From the NCBI RefSeq assembly GCF_900107195.1, contig NZ_FNPB01000003.1, positions 186,001 through 250,000 on the forward strand: a DNA stretch of 64,000 nucleotides. The letters run 5' to 3'. The translations under genes were made by a program, and so were the position numbers. The notes under the pieces are model-generated. The model did not search any database. It was not told where the DNA came from and worked only from the letters and a program-made list of their open reading frames with translations. The DNA is from Halobellus clavatus. Its GTDB lineage: Archaea; Halobacteriota; Halobacteria; Halobacteriales; Haloferacaceae. The first letter of the stretch is position 1, and each line of letters starts with the position of its first letter. Shown here one piece after another: positions 9,506-53,301 of the stretch.

Positions 9506-10039
9506 ATGTCATCGATCGAACTGACGTCCAGTCAGAAAACCATCCTGACGGCGCTCATTAACCTCCACCGCGAAGACGAAGACGCAGTAAAGGGCGAGGA
9601 CATCGCCGCCGAGGTCGACCGCAACCCCGGAACGATCCGTAACCAGATGCAGAGCCTGAAAGCCCTCCAACTCGTCGAGGGCGTCCCCGGCCCGAAAGGC
9701 GGGTACAAGCCGACTGCGAACGCGTACGAGGCCCTCGACGTCGACCAGATGGACGAGCCAGCGTTCGTCCCGCTGTTCCACGACGACGAGGAAGTCGAGA
9801 ACGCGAACGTCGACGAGATCGACCTCTCGTCGGTGCATCACCCCGAACTCTGCCGCGCGGAGATCCACATTCAGGGCTCGGTGCGCGAGTTCCACGAGGG
9901 TGACAACGTCACCGTCGGCCCGACGCCGCTCTCGAAACTGGTGATCGAAGGCACCGTGGACGGGAAAGACGACACCGGAAATATCCTCATTCTCCGCATC
10001 GAGGATATGCGCGCGCCCGTCGGCGACGCCTCGCACTAG
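9506..10039 (+). CDS. Winged-helix transcriptional regulator (Rrf2/TrmB-like N-terminus)
   Basis: The protein has 177 residues. Residues 5-70 form a winged helix: a recognition segment DRNPGTIRNQMQSLKALQL followed by a wing at VPGPKGGYKPT. The C-terminal half (about 115-172) is a small beta-rich domain with HIQGSVREFHEGDNVTVGPTPLSKLVIEG and no Cys ligands for an Fe-S cluster. I infer a soluble sensor-regulator; the ligand and targets are unknown. The ATG at 9506 is supported by a TATA-like box at the right distance, while the longer frame from 9389 reads through the promoter. Downstream lies the convergent NDH-2-like gene. Confidence 0.8.
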   Translation: MSSIELTSSQKTILTALINLHREDEDAVKGEDIAAEVDRNPGTIRNQMQSLKALQLVEGVPGPKGGYKPTANAYEALDVDQMDEPAFVPLFHDDEEVENANVDEIDLSSVHHPELCRAEIHIQGSVREFHEGDNVTVGPTPLSKLVIEGTVDGKDDTGNILILRIEDMRAPVGDASH

Positions 10040-10142
10040 CTCTCCAGACTCTCTCTTTGCCAGACCGCCCGGAGCCGCAGCCGTATCCGAAACAGGCTAA
10101 AAACTCGACGACGTTCCTCGTCTGTGTCTGTCTCCGCCTATC

Positions 10143-11327
10143 TCACATACTGTCCCACGCGTCGAGCGCGTGGCGTGGCGAGGCGACGTCCGCGATCCAA
10201 CGGGCCGCGATGGCCTTCTTGAGGTTTCGAGCCGCCGAGCCCCCGAAGACGTTCACCGGGAACGCGCCGAGCACGGGCAGTTTGACATCGTGTGCGACGG
10301 CGTCGTCCCCGACGGAGACGACCGTTCCTTTGTCGTCGTGACGCCAGGTCTTCAGCGGCTTCCCCGCGGCCGCCCGAGCGACGTTTTCGCCGGCGATTTC
10401 GGCGGCCTGCCAGGCTGCCTGGGCTGTCGGCGGTGCGACGTCGTCCGGGCCCTGCTCGACGAGCGCCGTGTCGCCAACCGCGAAGACGCGCTCGTCTGAG
10501 GTCTGGAAGTCAGCATCGGCGAAGAGGCGGTGGGAGCGGTCGTCCTGGTCGAGTTCCATTTCGCTGACTTCCTCGTGGCCCGTGATGCCGCCCGTCCAGA
10601 TCAGGACGTCGTAGTCAAGGGCGTCGTCGTCCTCGTCGTCGCCCAGATAGGCTGTCTCGGCGTCGACCTTCGAGATGAAGTCGCCGGTGAGGATCTCGAT
10701 GTCGAGGTCTTCGAGGCGTCGCCGGAGCGCGCCCTGGAGTTCGGGATCGTTGCCCGGGAAGACCTCGTCGAGCCCCTCGACCAGCGTCACGTCGATCGGT
10801 GCGCGGTGCTCGTCGCGGTACTCGGCAATCTCGCCGGCGGTTTGGATGCCCGAGAGACCGGCACCACCGACGACGACCTGCGCGGGATCGTCACGTGAGG
10901 CCGCCTCGGCGGCCTCCTTGACGTCTGCGTGGATCGCTCGGGCATCGTCCAGCCCCTTCAGCTCGTGAGCGTGCGCTTCGAGCCCGTCGATGCCGAAGAA
11001 CGCGGTGCCCGACCCGACGCCGAGTAGCAGATAGTCGTACTCGATCTCGTCGTCGCCGAGTTCGACGACGCGCTCGTCGACGTCGACGTTCTCGACGTGT
11101 CCCTTCACGAACTCCGTGGAGTCGGCCTTGATGTCGTCGACCGGGATGGCGATCTTCGATTCGACGCTCGGATCGCGGATGCATCGGTGGACCTCGTGGA
11201 GAACGAGATGGTAGTCGTGCTCTGAGACCCAGGTGAGTTCCGCGCTCGCATCGAGTTCCGCTTCGAGTCGTTTGACCGCACCGGCACCGGCGTAGCCGGA
11301 ACCGACGACGACAACCTGCGTAGTCAT
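10143..11327 (-). CDS. NAD(P)/FAD-dependent oxidoreductase, type II NADH dehydrogenase-like
   Basis: This two-Rossmann flavoprotein has 394 residues. The FAD site is VVVGSGYAGAGAVKRLE (residues 5-21) and the NAD site VVVGGAGLSGIQTAGEIAE lies near residues 150-170. The second FAD motif is VFAVGDTALVEQG. Type II NADH dehydrogenases pass electrons from NADH to quinone without pumping protons and sit on the membrane face; the C-terminal end fits such a monotopic protein. Sulfide:quinone reductase is less likely because the paired catalytic Cys are missing. The start MTTQVVVVGSGYAG is chosen over an 85-codon upstream extension lacking homology. Confidence 0.85.
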   Translation of the reverse strand: MTTQVVVVGSGYAGAGAVKRLEAELDASAELTWVSEHDYHLVLHEVHRCIRDPSVESKIAIPVDDIKADSTEFVKGHVENVDVDERVVELGDDEIEYDYLLLGVGSGTAFFGIDGLEAHAHELKGLDDARAIHADVKEAAEAASRDDPAQVVVGGAGLSGIQTAGEIAEYRDEHRAPIDVTLVEGLDEVFPGNDPELQGALRRRLEDLDIEILTGDFISKVDAETAYLGDDEDDDALDYDVLIWTGGITGHEEVSEMELDQDDRSHRLFADADFQTSDERVFAVGDTALVEQGPDDVAPPTAQAAWQAAEIAGENVARAAAGKPLKTWRHDDKGTVVSVGDDAVAHDVKLPVLGAFPVNVFGGSAARNLKKAIAARWIADVASPRHALDAWDSM

Positions 11328-47737: not shown

Positions 47738-48677
47738 CCAGCGGGGAACCGGAGCCAGTTCGTATAGCGATATGAAGTATACGAGTCTCGGAGGAGACGG
47801 CTCCGAATCGAGACGAAAGCCGCCACGCGACACACCGAATAGAAACCAGAATTCGCGGGCATTCACTGCGAGTCACTCGACACTTCACTCCAGTCGGTGG
47901 TCGAACGGGAGCGGGTCTTTAGCAGCGCGCCTACGCAGTCACCGTCAGGAACGGACGATCGGATTGGTAGCGCCCACATACGGGCCGGTAACCCAAAGCC
48001 AGGGAACGGGCTCAAGCCGGTGTGAAATTTCGGATCGGAACGGAATTGACAGCTCGAGTGGAATCACGGATGAAGACGCGTTCTCGGGCCGGGTCGAGAC
48101 GTAGAGACGGTACCAATCGCACGCCACCAAGTGACCCCGAGCGCAGAGGAGGCCCAAACTACTGCGGACCGTCGCTGAATCAGCATCGGATGTATCCAGG
48201 CGACGCCTCGAGCACATCTGATTCGGGGATCACTGTCTGATCGGTACGAACGCCTGAACGTCGCTACGCGACAGTAACCGCGTGTTGCATCTGCATTTCA
48301 CGGGCGAAACCGGTCACTGAGGTTATCCGCCAGAATCGTGTTTCATCGGTCGATTCAGTGAGTCCTGTCGAGCGGTTGTCCGTCGCACGGCGAACAGTGG
48401 GAAGAATATTTGCCGAGAGATCGACCACCCCGGTGATCCTCATCCACTACGCCCGGCGCTCGGTTCGCCTGTGAGGTTATCTCAGGGGACGTCGTCGAGA
48501 GCGGAGAGAATCAGGATGGTCCTTGAATCCCTGTTCTGTATCCCGCGTCGATCCAGCGCTGGATAACTTCGGAAAACGAAGAACGCGGATCGTGACTGGT
48601 CGGCCGAGATCCTGATCGAAGCGTGCCTCGTTTCCGAGACGGGTCGAGAAAACCAATTGCCAGATCGAGACCGAATA

Positions 48678-48705
48678 TCTAACCCGGTGTCTATACCGGG
48701 CTATT
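48678..48705. repeat. Inverted repeat with 6-bp centre (candidate recombinase site A)
   Basis: The exact arms CCCGGT and ACCGGG flank GTCTAT. Extended to 11 bp each side the arms match at 8 of 11 positions. The 11+6+11 layout is that of Xer/dif sites. It could also be a plain hairpin. Confidence 0.4.
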
Positions 48706-48821
48706 CAGGTGGTGGCTCCTCCCCGGTTCTGGAGCCCTCTACCCCAGGGGTTGCAGGTCGAAGAGCCGGGTGTCGAAATCAGTCGTTGGCGGCCCAACGC
48801 TAATCCTGGATCCGGGCTCTC

Positions 48822-48849
48822 AGGGCGACAAAATATTATTTGTGCCGGT
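48822..48849. repeat. Inverted repeat with 6-bp AT-only centre (candidate recombinase site B)
   Basis: ACAAA and TTTGT flank ATATTA. Extending to 11 bp, AGGGCGACAAA and TTTGTGCCGGT match at 7 of 11 positions, with the best match next to the centre, as in known dif sites. It is about 140 bp before the DUF5805 start. Confidence 0.4.
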
Positions 48850-48990
48850 AAAACCAATTCACATTTTATGATAGTACTTGCACAACTAATACTTTGGAAC
48901 CGGTGCTAATAGGGTTTCAGAACCACATCTAAGAGAGGTTATCCTGATTCGTACAGTATATTCAAGTGGGACGGGTTCGCACACACCAGT

Positions 48991-49434
48991 ATGTCGACGG
49001 AGGGATCCGACACGGAACGAAAAACCGTGATGACGTACGTCCCGGCGTATCAGAAAGAACGCTGGAAAGAACACGCCGATCAACTCGGGATGAGTCAGAG
49101 TGAATTCCTGCGGACGATGGTCCAGGCGGGCCGTCGCAACTTCGAGATTCCTGATCTCCCTAGTGGGGAGGAAGAAGAGACCGCCCAGTCGGCCAACTCG
49201 CAGAACTCCGAAGAGAGCGCACAGCAGGGAGAAGAGTTCCGAGAGCGAGTGCGGGCTGCACTCTCGGACTCGGAGTACCGATCATGGGACGAACTGCTCG
49301 CGGCATTGACGAACGACATCGAGGATCGGCTGGATACGACGCTACAGGACCTCCAGGCCTCGAACGAAGTTCAGTACAGCGGCCGACACGGCGGATATAC
49401 GCTGGCAGGCTCTTCGGAGCGTCCCGATGAATAG
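48991..49434 (+). CDS. DUF5805 DNA-binding-like protein, partner of the recombinase
   Basis: The 147-residue protein's N-terminal 50 residues (MTYVPAYQKERWKEHADQLG, then MSQSEFLRTMVQAGRRNFEI) look like a ribbon-helix-helix DNA-binding domain. A Gln/Ser/Glu-rich linker (58-85) follows. The C-terminal 60 residues form a winged-helix-like domain (SDSEYRSWDELLAALTNDIE, LQASNEVQYSGRHGGYTLAG). I match it to haloarchaeal DUF5805. Its stop overlaps the recombinase ATG region by 8 bp, so the two proteins are made together. It may position the recombinase at its site or set the direction of the reaction. Confidence 0.85.
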   Translation: MSTEGSDTERKTVMTYVPAYQKERWKEHADQLGMSQSEFLRTMVQAGRRNFEIPDLPSGEEEETAQSANSQNSEESAQQGEEFRERVRAALSDSEYRSWDELLAALTNDIEDRLDTTLQDLQASNEVQYSGRHGGYTLAGSSERPDE

Positions 49435-50494
49435 TGAAGCGACTGACCTCCAGCGTGAGGACCCCGTGTCGTACTTCTTAGAGGATATGACGTACCACGG
49501 GAAGTCGGATCGAACGCGAGCGGCCTACGAGCGGGTGTTACGCCGCTTTGAGGCCTTCCTCTCGGATCCTGCGCAAAACCCCAGCAACGCCTCGATATCC
49601 ATCGGCGACGCGTCCTACCGCGACTGTATGGCGTGGATCCATACGCTTCGCCGCTCGGAGATGGCCGACAGCACCATCGCGACATACGCGTCGTACCTGC
49701 ACCGGTTCTACGCGTACCTGACGCAGGTTGGACGGTTCGAGTCCAATCCTATGACTCTCGTGATGGAGGAGATGGACGAGGCGATCGATACGAACCCGTC
49801 CCGGCGTGAAATTTCGCTGTCAGCAATGCAGTCGTTCCTGCACGACGTGCACCATCCACTGGATCACGCGGTCATCTGTACGCTGCTCAAAACGGGGATG
49901 CGAGTCGGCGAACTCTGTAATCTGGATCTTCGAGACGTCGTACTAACCGATCAAACGCCAATCTCGAATCTCACCGACGGCGACATATCACCTCGGACGC
50001 AATTGGACGGTCGCGGCTCCTCGATCTACGTCGCTGCTGAACCCACTGCGGGGGAGGTCGTCGCCGGTGAGGAACGGAGCGCATCGAACAAACGAAAGCG
50101 CTCGACCATTGTTCCCGTGGACGAGGAACTCGAAACCGTGCTTTGTCGGTGGGCGGCCGTTCGTCCGGCCACGCGATCCCCCGCAGCACCGCTGTTCGTC
50201 AGCACTTCCGGCAGTTGGGGCGAGCGCCTGACACCGGATATGGTCCATCACATCGTCGAGCGTCACGCCAGTGATGCGGGCTGGCACCGATCCGGTGGTG
50301 GGGCCGACGAAAACGTCACGCCTCACTACTTCAGGCACTTCTTCACCACACACCTGCGGGACCGGACCGGCGACCGCGGGATCGTCAAGTATCTCCGCGG
50401 CGATGTCGGAGGCGACATCATCGATACCTACACCCACAATTGGGGCGATCGGGTTCGTGAGACCTACGAGGCGAACATTTACTCGCTCTATTGA
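49427..50494 (+). CDS. Tyrosine recombinase (XerC/D- or integrase-like)
   Basis: The 355-residue protein has an N-terminal SAM-like core-binding domain (residues 10-105: LEDMTYHGKSDRTRAAYERV, then STIATYASYLHRFYAYLTQV) and a catalytic domain. Catalytic residues visible are Arg in KTGMRVGELCNLDLRD, the HxxR pair in TPHYFRHFFTTHLRD, and the C-terminal Tyr in IIDTYTHNWGDRVRETYEAN. An insert with charged residues (about 180-225) enlarges the catalytic domain compared with XerC/D (about 300 residues). It could be a chromosomal Xer-type resolvase or a domesticated integrase. There is no tRNA at either side within 3 kb, which speaks against a fresh integrative element. Confidence 0.92.
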   Translation: MNSEATDLQREDPVSYFLEDMTYHGKSDRTRAAYERVLRRFEAFLSDPAQNPSNASISIGDASYRDCMAWIHTLRRSEMADSTIATYASYLHRFYAYLTQVGRFESNPMTLVMEEMDEAIDTNPSRREISLSAMQSFLHDVHHPLDHAVICTLLKTGMRVGELCNLDLRDVVLTDQTPISNLTDGDISPRTQLDGRGSSIYVAAEPTAGEVVAGEERSASNKRKRSTIVPVDEELETVLCRWAAVRPATRSPAAPLFVSTSGSWGERLTPDMVHHIVERHASDAGWHRSGGGADENVTPHYFRHFFTTHLRDRTGDRGIVKYLRGDVGGDIIDTYTHNWGDRVRETYEANIYSLY

Positions 50495-50868
50495 ACTGAT
50501 TGACTGTCCGATAGCCGTCGTATAAATTCTATACCGCTATATGGAATTCTTACTTCCTGATTGGGAATCCGAGCGATCTGGTGAACGACAGCACGAATGT
50601 AGTCGGCGGAATCGCGGAGTGTTCGGCCGTCCGCCTTCCTCGTAAGTGTGCGAGACCGCATCTCGCTGGCTTTCGCCCGCGACGCTCGTCTCCCTCGGTG
50701 CTTGCTGGTCTTGCGGGGACGAGAACTGTTCACGACGCCTTACATCGTGGATCTAAGCGATCTTTCCAGTAGCCGAGACGAGTCCAGCCTCGTCCGTCCG
50801 TCTATCACTCTCTTCACTCACGCAGAAACTCGCTCAGCCCTGGAGCGTACCACAAACCAAAACCGGAG
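50495..50868. other. Intergenic stretch, no supported gene
   Basis: The first 60 bp after the recombinase stop are AT-rich (TATAAATTCTATACCGCTATAT near 50521-50543). The rest has open frames on both strands without the acidic codon signature, and looks like decayed sequence. A minus-strand frame at 50488-50733 is discussed under rejected items. Confidence 0.5.
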
Positions 50869-51018
50869 TCACCGTCCAATGAAGTACGCCGCTGCCTGGG
50901 CTTCGGGACCGATCTCCTCGAACGGAGCGTCGTCACACCGACGACACTGGGGCGGCACTTCGACGTCCGCATAGACAGTTTCACAGCCTCTGCAGACGAA
51001 AAATCGGAGTCCGAGCAC
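50869..51018 (-). CDS. Zinc-ribbon microprotein (49 residues)
   Basis: GTG at 51018-51016 to TGA at 50869 gives 49 residues. VLGLRFFVCRGCETVYADVE opens with one CxxC (Cys9, Cys12), and PPQCRRCDDAPFEEIG has the second (Cys25, Cys28), giving a Cys4 zinc ribbon. The tail reads GPEAQAAAYFIGR. Four correctly spaced Cys in such a short frame are unlikely by chance. The function is unknown. It is the only believable gene between the recombinase and the methyltransferase at 51449, on the opposite strand to both. Confidence 0.6.
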   Translation of the reverse strand: MLGLRFFVCRGCETVYADVEVPPQCRRCDDAPFEEIGPEAQAAAYFIGR

Positions 51019-51448
51019 GAATCACAACACGGTGGCGACGAGCAAAACCGTGTCGGCCCGCGAGTTCGAATCGCCACGCAGTCCCGATGCGCTACGACAC
51101 CGCCAGGGGGCGTTCGTCCGAACGTACAGGGTCTCTTTTTCCCACCTCAATCAAATCCCTATGAGGTGGGTGCCGATTTGTCGGGTGAGGCATTTCTGGT
51201 AGTATGGCCGAGTCACCGGAATCGATCGCAGGGGTCGCCGACGGTGACTGCACTGGGATGCGGGCGCTCGTGACGGGATTGACGAACCGCTTGCCACCTC
51301 GGCCGCGGACCCTCGACGGATGAAGCGTGACGTTCCGGGAGTCACCGGCCGTATCTAGGTCGGGAGCCGCGTCTGGATTCGCAGCAGTGGCGAGCGGTGT
51401 CTCTGAGACGCCACGCCGCCTATACCGGTTCCGCACGTACAGGCGACT
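51019..51448. other. Intergenic stretch with a strong inverted repeat
   Basis: No supported gene. It contains T5 at 51136-51140 followed by a perfect 9-bp hairpin (51141-51170). A 39-codon frame at 51204-51323 begins MAESPESIAGVADG and includes MRALVTGLTNRL, but I cannot support it. Confidence 0.5.
51141..51170. repeat. Perfect 9-bp inverted repeat with 12-nt loop
   Basis: CCCACCTCA (51141-51149) and TGAGGTGGG (51162-51170) pair exactly. A TTTTT run lies just before it on the plus strand. It does not sit directly behind a gene as a terminator would, so it may be an element end or an RNA structure. Confidence 0.6.
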
Positions 51449-52060
51449 ATGACCGAGTTGCTCTCGGATTCCGAGCGGGCCAAACTCGACGCGAACCCCG
51501 ACGAGACGTTCTACGACAGCCCGCGCTTCGTCACGCACGCCGACGACGGGTTCTTGGATCGACTCACCGACACGTACGCGTCGGTGTTGTCCGACGGCGA
51601 CCGGGTCTTCGACGCGATGAGTAGCTGGGTGTCACACCTTCCCCCGCGCGAGTACGAACGCGTCGTCGGCCACGGACTCAACGCTGCGGAACTAGCGGAT
51701 AACAATGCGCTCGACGAGTGGTTCCTGCAGGATCTCAACCACGAACAGACGCTTCCGCTCGACGACGGGAGTTTCGACGCCGTGCTGTGTGCCCTGTCGG
51801 TCCAGTACCTACAGTATCCCGCAGCAGTGTTTGCGGAGTTCGACCGCGTACTCACTCTGGGCGGCGTGCTCGTGGTGAGTTTCACGAACCGGATGTTCCC
51901 GACCAAGGCGGTCCGCGCGTGGCGGGATGCCGATATGACCGGGCGGACCGACCTCGTCGAATCGTACTGCGAGGCCGGCGGATTATCCGTGACGGATGTC
52001 GTCCGGGACCGGCCCGAGGGCGATCCCTTCGTCGCCGTGGTCGCACAGTCGCCCCGCTGA
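51449..52060 (+). CDS. SAM-dependent methyltransferase-like protein (Methyltransf_11 type)
   Basis: The 203-residue protein has a Rossmann-type core, with VFDAMSSWVSHLPP at the motif I position and FDAVLCALSVQYLQYPAAVF plus VLTLGGVLVVSFTNRMFPTK after it. The usual GxGxG of motif I is replaced by AMSSW, which is unusual and may mean altered cofactor binding or a pseudo-enzyme. The N-terminal 50 residues (NPDETFYDSPRFVTHADDGF) precede the fold and recall a haloarchaeal subfamily. It is on the same strand as galK, 87 bp upstream of it. Confidence 0.8.
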   Translation: MTELLSDSERAKLDANPDETFYDSPRFVTHADDGFLDRLTDTYASVLSDGDRVFDAMSSWVSHLPPREYERVVGHGLNAAELADNNALDEWFLQDLNHEQTLPLDDGSFDAVLCALSVQYLQYPAAVFAEFDRVLTLGGVLVVSFTNRMFPTKAVRAWRDADMTGRTDLVESYCEAGGLSVTDVVRDRPEGDPFVAVVAQSPR

Positions 52061-52147
52061 CACGGGGGCCGTCCTCGACCGCGGTCACCGATCCTTCTCG
52101 CTGGTCTCCCAACGCTTATTTTGTCGAGCGCGGGAATTTCGGCAAAG

Positions 52148-53236
52148 ATGGACACGCGCACCCACCGGGTGATTTCCCCGGGTCGAGTCAACCTCATCGG
52201 CGATCACACCGACTACACCGGCGGATACGTGCTCCCGGTGGCGACCGACCTGCACACGCAGTTGGCGGCGTCGCCCGCGGACGAGGTGACCGTGTACTCC
52301 GAGGCGACCGACGACCGTCGCTCGTTCGCGGTCGACGACGAACAGCCGAGCGGTGACTGGACCGATTACGTGAAAGGCTGCTATGCAGTGCTCCGGGAGG
52401 AAGGGTACGCTCCGGGGGGATTCGATGGTGATCTCAGTGGGACGCTCCCGCTGGGCTCGGGGTTGAGCTCCTCGGCTAGTCTCGAACTGGCTGTGGTCGC
52501 CTTTCTGAACGACGCGTACTCGCTGGGACTCTCACGGGAACGAATGGCCAGGCTCAGCCAGCGTGTGGAGAACGACTTCGTCGGCGTCTCCTGTGGGATT
52601 ATGGATCAGTTCGCGGTGGCGCTCGGACAGTCGGGACACGCGCTCCACCTCGACACCGGAAGCCTGGAGTACGATCCGATCCCGATCCCCGACGACGTCC
52701 GCCTCGTCGTCTACCACACCGGAGTCGAACGCGGCCTCGTAGACACGGCGTACAACGAGCGCCGAGAGACCGTCGAAGGGGCGCTGGATGCCCTCGGAGC
52801 GGAGGCCTCAACCCAACTATCGGAAGCAGACATAGAAGACGCGGGGTCGCTCTCGGAACTCCAGCGGCAACGACTCGGGTACGTCGTCAGGGAGAACGAG
52901 CGAGTGCTTCGCGTCGGTGAGGCGCTTTCCGGAGGCGACCTCGAAACGGTGGGATCGCTCCTCACGGCCGCCCACGCTGACATCGCCGCGAACTACGACG
53001 CTAGCTGCCGGGAGTTGGACTTCGTCGTCGACCAGGCCGTCGAGCGCGGTGCCTACGGAGCGCGGCTCACGGGAGCGGGCTGGGGTGGAGCCGCTGTCGC
53101 GCTCGTCGATGCGGCGGATGCAGAGGCGTTTGCCCGTTCGCTGCACGAGCGCTACTGCGAGCAGTTCCCCGACCACGAATCGCGGTATCACCTCGTCACA
53201 CCGTCGGACGGCGTACGTGTCCAACGGCGATCGTGA
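52148..53236 (+). CDS. galK: Galactokinase
   Basis: The GHMP kinase has 362 residues and phosphorylates galactose at C1. The galactokinase signature is present as GRVNLIGDHTDYTGGYVLP (residues about 12-30), the ATP loop as LPLGSGLSSSASLEL, and motif III as GARLTGAGWGGAAVALV. The signature has Asp instead of Glu in IGEHTDY, a conservative change also seen in archaeal galactokinases. ATG at 52148 is chosen; TTATTTT at 52117-52123 is about 28 nt upstream. No other Leloir gene is in the window. Another small-sugar kinase of the GHMP family is the alternative. Confidence 0.88.
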   Translation: MDTRTHRVISPGRVNLIGDHTDYTGGYVLPVATDLHTQLAASPADEVTVYSEATDDRRSFAVDDEQPSGDWTDYVKGCYAVLREEGYAPGGFDGDLSGTLPLGSGLSSSASLELAVVAFLNDAYSLGLSRERMARLSQRVENDFVGVSCGIMDQFAVALGQSGHALHLDTGSLEYDPIPIPDDVRLVVYHTGVERGLVDTAYNERRETVEGALDALGAEASTQLSEADIEDAGSLSELQRQRLGYVVRENERVLRVGEALSGGDLETVGSLLTAAHADIAANYDASCRELDFVVDQAVERGAYGARLTGAGWGGAAVALVDAADAEAFARSLHERYCEQFPDHESRYHLVTPSDGVRVQRRS

Positions 53237-53301
53237 GTGGTGCGAGCGGTGAGTCGATCCGGACCCGCCCAGTTTAAGTCCCGGGAGACCCTCGCCCGGG
53301 T

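Follow-up and report, generated by a model that had tools for sequence, protein, structure and literature searches.

A DUF5805-recombinase gene pair between inverted dif-like sites opposite the main replication origin, a candidate Xer-type system of haloarchaea

The stretch of 64,000 nucleotides from Halobellus clavatus analysed here (the window) carries two overlapping genes, one for a small protein of the family DUF5805 and one for a tyrosine recombinase, and the question raised by this locus is what such a pair does on an archaeal chromosome and at which DNA sites it would act. Haloarchaea are polyploid and recombine heavily. The mechanism by which they resolve chromosome dimers appears not yet to have been worked out. 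The study of archaeal Xer/dif names no haloarchaeal site (PMC2958812), and the open-licence papers searched do not mention DUF5805 and yielded no account of the present system, a negative result that is no proof of novelty. No protein above the cut-off of NF040815, the archaeal XerA family (220 bits), was found in any of 59 haloarchaeal genomes, and the window recombinase scores 117 bits against the same model.

The sequence-only reading of this DNA had proposed a dedicated chromosomal two-protein recombinase system and had looked for its sites in front of the two genes. The locus is now seen to be composed as follows, R1 being the covariance model that was used to score the sites.

47756-47799, minus strand: left site, S- (core 47756-47782; the minus strand reads GTATACTTCAT ATCGCT ATACGAACTG; R1 26.4 bits)
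47785-47798, minus strand: GTCTC-N4-GAGAC palindrome of S-
47800-48926, no strand: non-coding part of the module, from S- to the promoter region, with no supported open reading frame, containing both of the repeats proposed earlier
48927-48943, plus strand: operator-like palindrome ATCTAAGAGAGGTTATC, whose left end is about 63 bp 5′ of the start codon of DUF5805
48991-49434, plus strand: gene for the DUF5805 protein, 147 aa (PF19121, Pfam E 4.5e-28)
49427-50494, plus strand: gene for the tyrosine recombinase, 355 aa (PF00589, E 4e-14; invariant columns; alignment to PaXerA, TaXerA and XerD)
50505-50548, plus strand: right site, S+ (core 50522-50548; ATAAATTCTAT ACCGCT ATATGGAATT, with an upstream TGTCCG half; R1 33.1 bits, the best of the genome)

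From the coordinates of the two sites, the interval under study is nearly the same as the segment between S- and S+, here called the module. The 8-bp overlap of the two genes was confirmed, as were the lack of a supported gene in the 1.25 kb before them (47738-48990) and of a tRNA nearby. In relatives the overlap is typically 4, 8 or 11 bp, and the recombinase gene lies directly 3′ of the DUF5805 gene in every locus examined (about 110 loci for both statements). Of 242 haloarchaeal genomes, 240 have a PF19121 match, in nearly all cases just one, and the only control genome with a match is that of Haloferax volcanii; the pair is core, chromosomal and usually present once. One of the two genomes that lack a match (G021) encodes a diverged ribbon-helix-helix protein next to a recombinase that is 46% identical, and because this related pair, with its sites, stands beside the Rio2 kinase gene, a true loss was rejected in favor of mere divergence. 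When the recombinase was compared with 50,697 phage records no close relative was found, the one match being distant and none exceeding 27% identity, and in plasmid records it occurs at more than 60% identity on two replicons only, each of about 1 Mb, where both copies are likewise bracketed by sites. Inverted duplicate copies of the recombinase were also seen inside one module in Natrinema hispanicum (L106) and in Halorussus ruber (L071), the former having DUF5805 duplicated within the same module as well.

The recombinase family conserves R159, K222, H300, R303 and Y335, and the position of the catalytic H/W is D326 throughout; the six-residue set R-K-H-R-[H/W]-Y is therefore incomplete. The profile of the family nevertheless matches PaXerA, TaXerA and XerD, and the predicted fold matches the Tn1549 integrase, XerA and Cre (E about 1e-7 to 6e-9 for XerA and Tn1549 Int), with 4a8e and 5hxy among the best solved-structure matches. 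For DUF5805, an N-terminal ribbon-helix-helix and a C-terminal winged helix are predicted with moderate confidence, with helices at residues 19-32, 36-50, 73-93 and 99-123 and a hairpin at 127-138. Its sequence weakly matches the winged helices of MCM4 and cullin, as well as MazE, and a fold search with the model returned nothing significant, the ribbon-helix-helix and winged-helix matches being weak ones only. A separate observation concerns chain 14 of PDB entry 9i5v, which is labelled as the ribosome-associated inhibitor RaiA and whose sequence matches tyrosine recombinases over both domains, so that this label is probably wrong.

The site itself is a conserved 45-bp element with the consensus YGTYCG-N4-CSRAC-NN-RTAAAYYRTAT-N6-ATAYNNAAWT. 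A weight matrix, trained on the downstream copies only and with the upstream sequence excluded from training, found the downstream site in 109 of 111 loci; in these 109 its orientation never varies, and its median distance past the recombinase stop codon is 65 bp. S+ is present in all 75 loci with full flanks, and the same matrix detected the inverted upstream copy, S-, in 72 of them; the segment is thus bounded by inverted sites. Within the window, S+ and S- give the two top scores (41.0 and 24.2), the next independent position scoring -5.6. Over the loci as a whole, real sites mostly score 20 to 46, and shuffled sequence of equal size reached at most 13. The core fits an 11+6+11 layout with the inner symmetry RTAT/ATAY; its outer arms are asymmetric and its spacing is unlike that of the Pyrococcus abyssi dif. 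Base by base, no covariation within the site was found beyond the consensus symmetry. All sites share a strong polarity. That the element might be a promoter of the gene downstream was rejected, as the start codon lies at no fixed distance and the downstream genes differ, and identical direct repeats of the site in one locus (L079) were set aside, as they adjoin an assembly gap.

The sites are thereby not where they had been sought. The sequence-only reading had pointed to two imperfect 28-bp inverted repeats at 48678-48705 and 48822-48849; these do exist with the 11+6+11 layout, but their arms match at only 8/11 and 7/11, and the same layout occurs in the 64-kb window at 228 places with at least 8/11 and at 1075 with at least 7/11. 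A blastn search of 48600-48999 against 13 close relatives gave a single 33-bp match, in one locus only. Being at chance frequency and unconserved in these relatives, although the gene pair is kept, the repeats were rejected as dif sites, a result that falls on them and leaves the idea of the system standing. The view that no second att copy is visible was mistaken, because the inverted copy at 47756-47799 exists. The palindrome before the DUF5805 gene has the family consensus GATAAG-N4-CTTATC, with at least 9 of 12 matches in 87 of 101 loci (shuffled expectation 5.4), and is probably an operator. Direct repeats of about 20 bp, some 50 bp apart, were also noticed 5′ of it (window 48880-48945) and seem to be conserved in relatives.

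The position of the module on the chromosome was followed relative to the long Orc1/Cdc6 gene, which we take to be the marker of the main haloarchaeal origin. On a scale on which 0.5 of the chromosome length is exactly opposite this gene, the module lies at a mean distance of 0.448 (sd 0.042) in 42 genomes, seven of whose chromosome lengths are rounded values, and 37 of the 42 have it at 0.40 or beyond; the controls, Rio2 and the second Orc gene, lie at 0.209 and 0.071. In at least 10 of the 42 genomes no more than 2.5 kb separates the Orc1 gene from the start of the record, which would fit a convention of beginning records at this gene. A location opposite the replication origin, which had been put forward as a check on the 28-bp repeats, accordingly holds for the gene module. 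The 42 genomes are not independent, because the distances of Rio2 from the origin are conserved too, and the position of the module may in part be inherited; a single ancestral placement at 0.40 or beyond has a probability of about 0.2 by chance. A position opposite Orc1 is required by a function at the terminus and is no proof of such a function.

The gene order around the module carries a signature of in-place inversion. When the genes flanking the module were compared between genome pairs, 1337 shared genes agreed in both side and strand, 810 differed in both, and 37 and 45 fell into the other two classes, as against 637, 4, 55 and 6 for the Rio2 control. Both flanks are swapped in 43 genome pairs, and at least four independent in-place inversions have occurred between species (Haloferax versus Halogranum, Halorussus L068 versus L070, Halegenticoccus L065 versus L086, and L076 versus L089), those in Halorussus and Halegenticoccus being within a genus. 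The breakpoints of these inversions are at the sites, where synteny often breaks. The orientation is constant in all comparable loci of Haloferax, Halorubrum and the window's genus (one genome per species); inversion is therefore rare, and frequent phase variation was rejected on this ground. In dif modules, recombining sites have identical or near-identical 6-bp spacers (PMC13141974), a rule with which the present spacers agree only weakly. The spacers of S- and S+ are identical in only 17 of 87 genomes, which argues that inversion is not routine, and at least 5 of their 6 positions agree in 41 of the 87 (shuffled 31); those of the Rio2 pair reach 5 of 6 in 7 of 20 cases (shuffled 3.5) and are identical in none of the 20.

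The same site is found elsewhere in the genomes. With a sequence-only model, the window's genome gives 9 matches and each of 30 complete or nearly complete genomes gives 5 to 15. Most of the sites are arranged in inverted pairs that face inward, with 0.2 to 6 kb between them. In a set of 26 sites that had not been selected for pairing, 16 had a partner on the inner side in the opposite orientation and 4 had one in all other arrangements together. The pairs bracket complete genes: those for the Rio2 kinase and a DHH-family exonuclease, the gcvT-gcvH-gcvP operon, HMG-CoA synthase with an S19e-like gene, DUF5783 with NifU, and DUF7095. The case that stands out is the following.

9733-10809 of locus L133 (C19:218735-219809 of the window's genome; also L150-L179): Rio2 kinase gene, with 45-bp sites beside it in most genomes

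In 26 of the 30 genomes Rio2 is flanked by the site on at least one side, usually by a full inverted pair. Relative to the start codon the upstream site is at about -83, and the downstream site often overlaps the stop codon. The glycine-cleavage operon gcvT-gcvH-gcvPA-gcvPB of the window's genome (C26; L134 5021-9702) lies between an inverted pair whose left copy is weak, and the gcvT module recurs in another genus (L229). Ten sites have no partner. Five of them have a tyrosine integrase gene nearby, from one of two other families, and four of these five are within about 250 bp upstream of that gene. As a further observation, a tyrosine recombinase of about 410 aa, from another family, is encoded directly 5′ of Rio2 inside the bracket in two loci (L149 8837-10066 and L235 6193-7425), and in the window's genome a member of the same family adjoins a single site (L130). 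Insertions cluster in a hot spot at the right-hand edge of S+ in the window's genus. The window itself has a methyltransferase and a galactokinase gene in this stretch (50549-53300), and in the genus it varies between no insert, a tungstate-type ABC operon, a gene for a 738-aa protein and the window's genes.

The explanation that we consider probable, though far from secure, is a haloarchaeal system of the Xer/dif type, in which the recombinase and DUF5805 act at the 45-bp dif-like site, present as an inverted pair opposite the main origin. The action of the recombinase, the help of DUF5805 and the resolution of chromosomes are inferred from the genomic findings combined with knowledge of Xer systems. 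The two proteins would be produced by translational coupling; recombinase monomers would bind the arms RTAAAYYRTAT and ATAYNNAAWT that flank the 6-bp spacer and exchange strands there; and DUF5805, as a putative accessory DNA-binding factor, or another factor would bind the adjoining GTYCG-N4-CGRAC palindrome and make the site directional. Two copies of one site, on sister chromosomes or within a dimer, would then recombine and so resolve the dimer, taking over the task of canonical XerA, which is absent; this is presumably the main role of the system, and matching spacers within a pair would allow an occasional inversion of the module itself. Counted for this reading were the universality of the pair, the lack of phage relatives, the absence of XerA, the sites, the terminus position, the inversions, the integrase-borne sites and the XerA-like fold; counted against it were the 5 to 15 sites per genome, the mostly unmatched spacers, the change of the catalytic H/W to D and the different dif spacing.

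Some of the same observations could be accounted for by a system resembling the dif modules of Acinetobacter plasmids, whose recombinase would shuffle, invert and move site-flanked core chromosomal genes (Rio2, DHH exonuclease, the gcv operon, the HMG-CoA synthase operon), its own module being just one of them. The inward pairs around complete genes (the 16 versus 4 sites) and the hot spot beside S+ speak for such shuffling, yet in about 20 genomes the orientation of Rio2 towards its left-hand neighbours does not change, the lack of any identical Rio2 spacer pair does not fit, and neither a module relocated together with its sites nor a movement of Rio2 was found, so that we hold it to be unlikely. 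An improbable reading is that of a local inversion switch, in which flipping of the 2.8-kb module would alter its own expression or that of its neighbours: it would explain the repeated in-place inversions between species, but the orientation is constant in three genera, the promoter region lies within the module and the spacers are usually unlike.

The sites might also be bound by a regulator, an insulator or a nucleoid protein, the recombinase being linked to them by descent only. The upstream Rio2 site near -83, the unmatched spacers of the pairs and the polarity common to all sites would suit this; sites that lie 3′ of genes and overlap the Rio2 stop codon, the same site beside genes of other integrase families, and inversion breakpoints and breaks of synteny that coincide with sites do not, and the proposal is in our view quite improbable. 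Very improbable is a domesticated integrative element, i.e., an integrase remnant with its attachment sites that became fixed in the haloarchaeal ancestor. A small DNA-binding protein paired with a tyrosine recombinase, sites at both ends, and mobile relatives of other families in the same genomes recall such an element, but the pair is universally retained with intact catalytic motifs, its terminal sites are inverted rather than direct, and it has no phage relatives. A transposon or prophage was rejected on the grounds of universality, lack of phage relatives and inverted terminal sites, and an ordinary phage or plasmid integrase with att sites fails too, there being no direct attL/attR and the distribution being universal, not patchy.

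Returning to the Xer/dif reading, the haloarchaeal system shares with XerA/dif of P. abyssi and Thermoplasma acidophilum a chromosomal, universal, single-copy tyrosine recombinase and a site near the terminus; the 11+6+11 layout is compatible with its core, though the outer arms are asymmetric. It differs in having D for the catalytic H/W, a score below the XerA family cut-off, an obligate DUF5805 neighbour, an inverted site pair next to the gene and several sites per genome instead of one; the inner spacing of the P. abyssi dif is also different (PMC2958812). XerS/difSL of streptococci and lactococci, as outlined in that study (PMC2958812), likewise has a recombinase with a dif-like site next to its gene at the terminus, but XerS/difSL is a single-recombinase system, whereas the haloarchaeal one always encodes a second DNA-binding protein and has a duplicated, inverted site; the bacteria use FtsK. 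Genes between inversely oriented Xer-type sites, in modules that invert, are known from the pdif modules of Acinetobacter plasmids (PMC13141974), in contrast to which the haloarchaeal modules are chromosomal and surround core genes, with all pairs facing inward, spacers often unmatched and the recombinase inside its own module. Another haloarchaeal tyrosine recombinase aided by adjacent small proteins is the SNJ2-type integrase with Orf2/Orf3 (PMC8371274), the part proposed here for DUF5805; that integrase is viral and belongs to a mobile element, whereas the present pair is chromosomal, without a close relative in phage records.

The idea of a dedicated chromosomal two-protein recombinase system is thus supported by a pair that is core in the class and lies opposite the origin, by the ribbon-helix-helix predicted in the partner protein and by sites that resemble dif; the sequence-only reading had been right about a chromosomal system, and had foreseen neither the bracketing pair nor the pairs at other core genes nor the in-place inversion of the module. 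A wider proposal is more tentative and has, in our estimation, somewhat less than an even chance: that a two-protein system replaced XerA, with inward inverted pairs of sites around both its own genes, at the terminus, and a set of other core genes (Rio2, for example), and that it is a class-wide chromosomal counterpart of the plasmid dif modules, with an altered active site in the recombinase, by which polyploid cells resolve their chromosomes and slowly rearrange their genomes. A prediction with both proteins named and the sites placed exactly can now be tested in Haloferax volcanii, which has a DUF5805 gene. If the prediction holds, an archaeal recombinase of the Xer type would here have its own DNA-binding partner, and inverted Xer-type sites would for the first time be seen around core chromosomal genes across a whole class. 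Judged from the genomes compared, the cassette is a strong candidate for the untangling and occasional flipping of haloarchaeal chromosomes.
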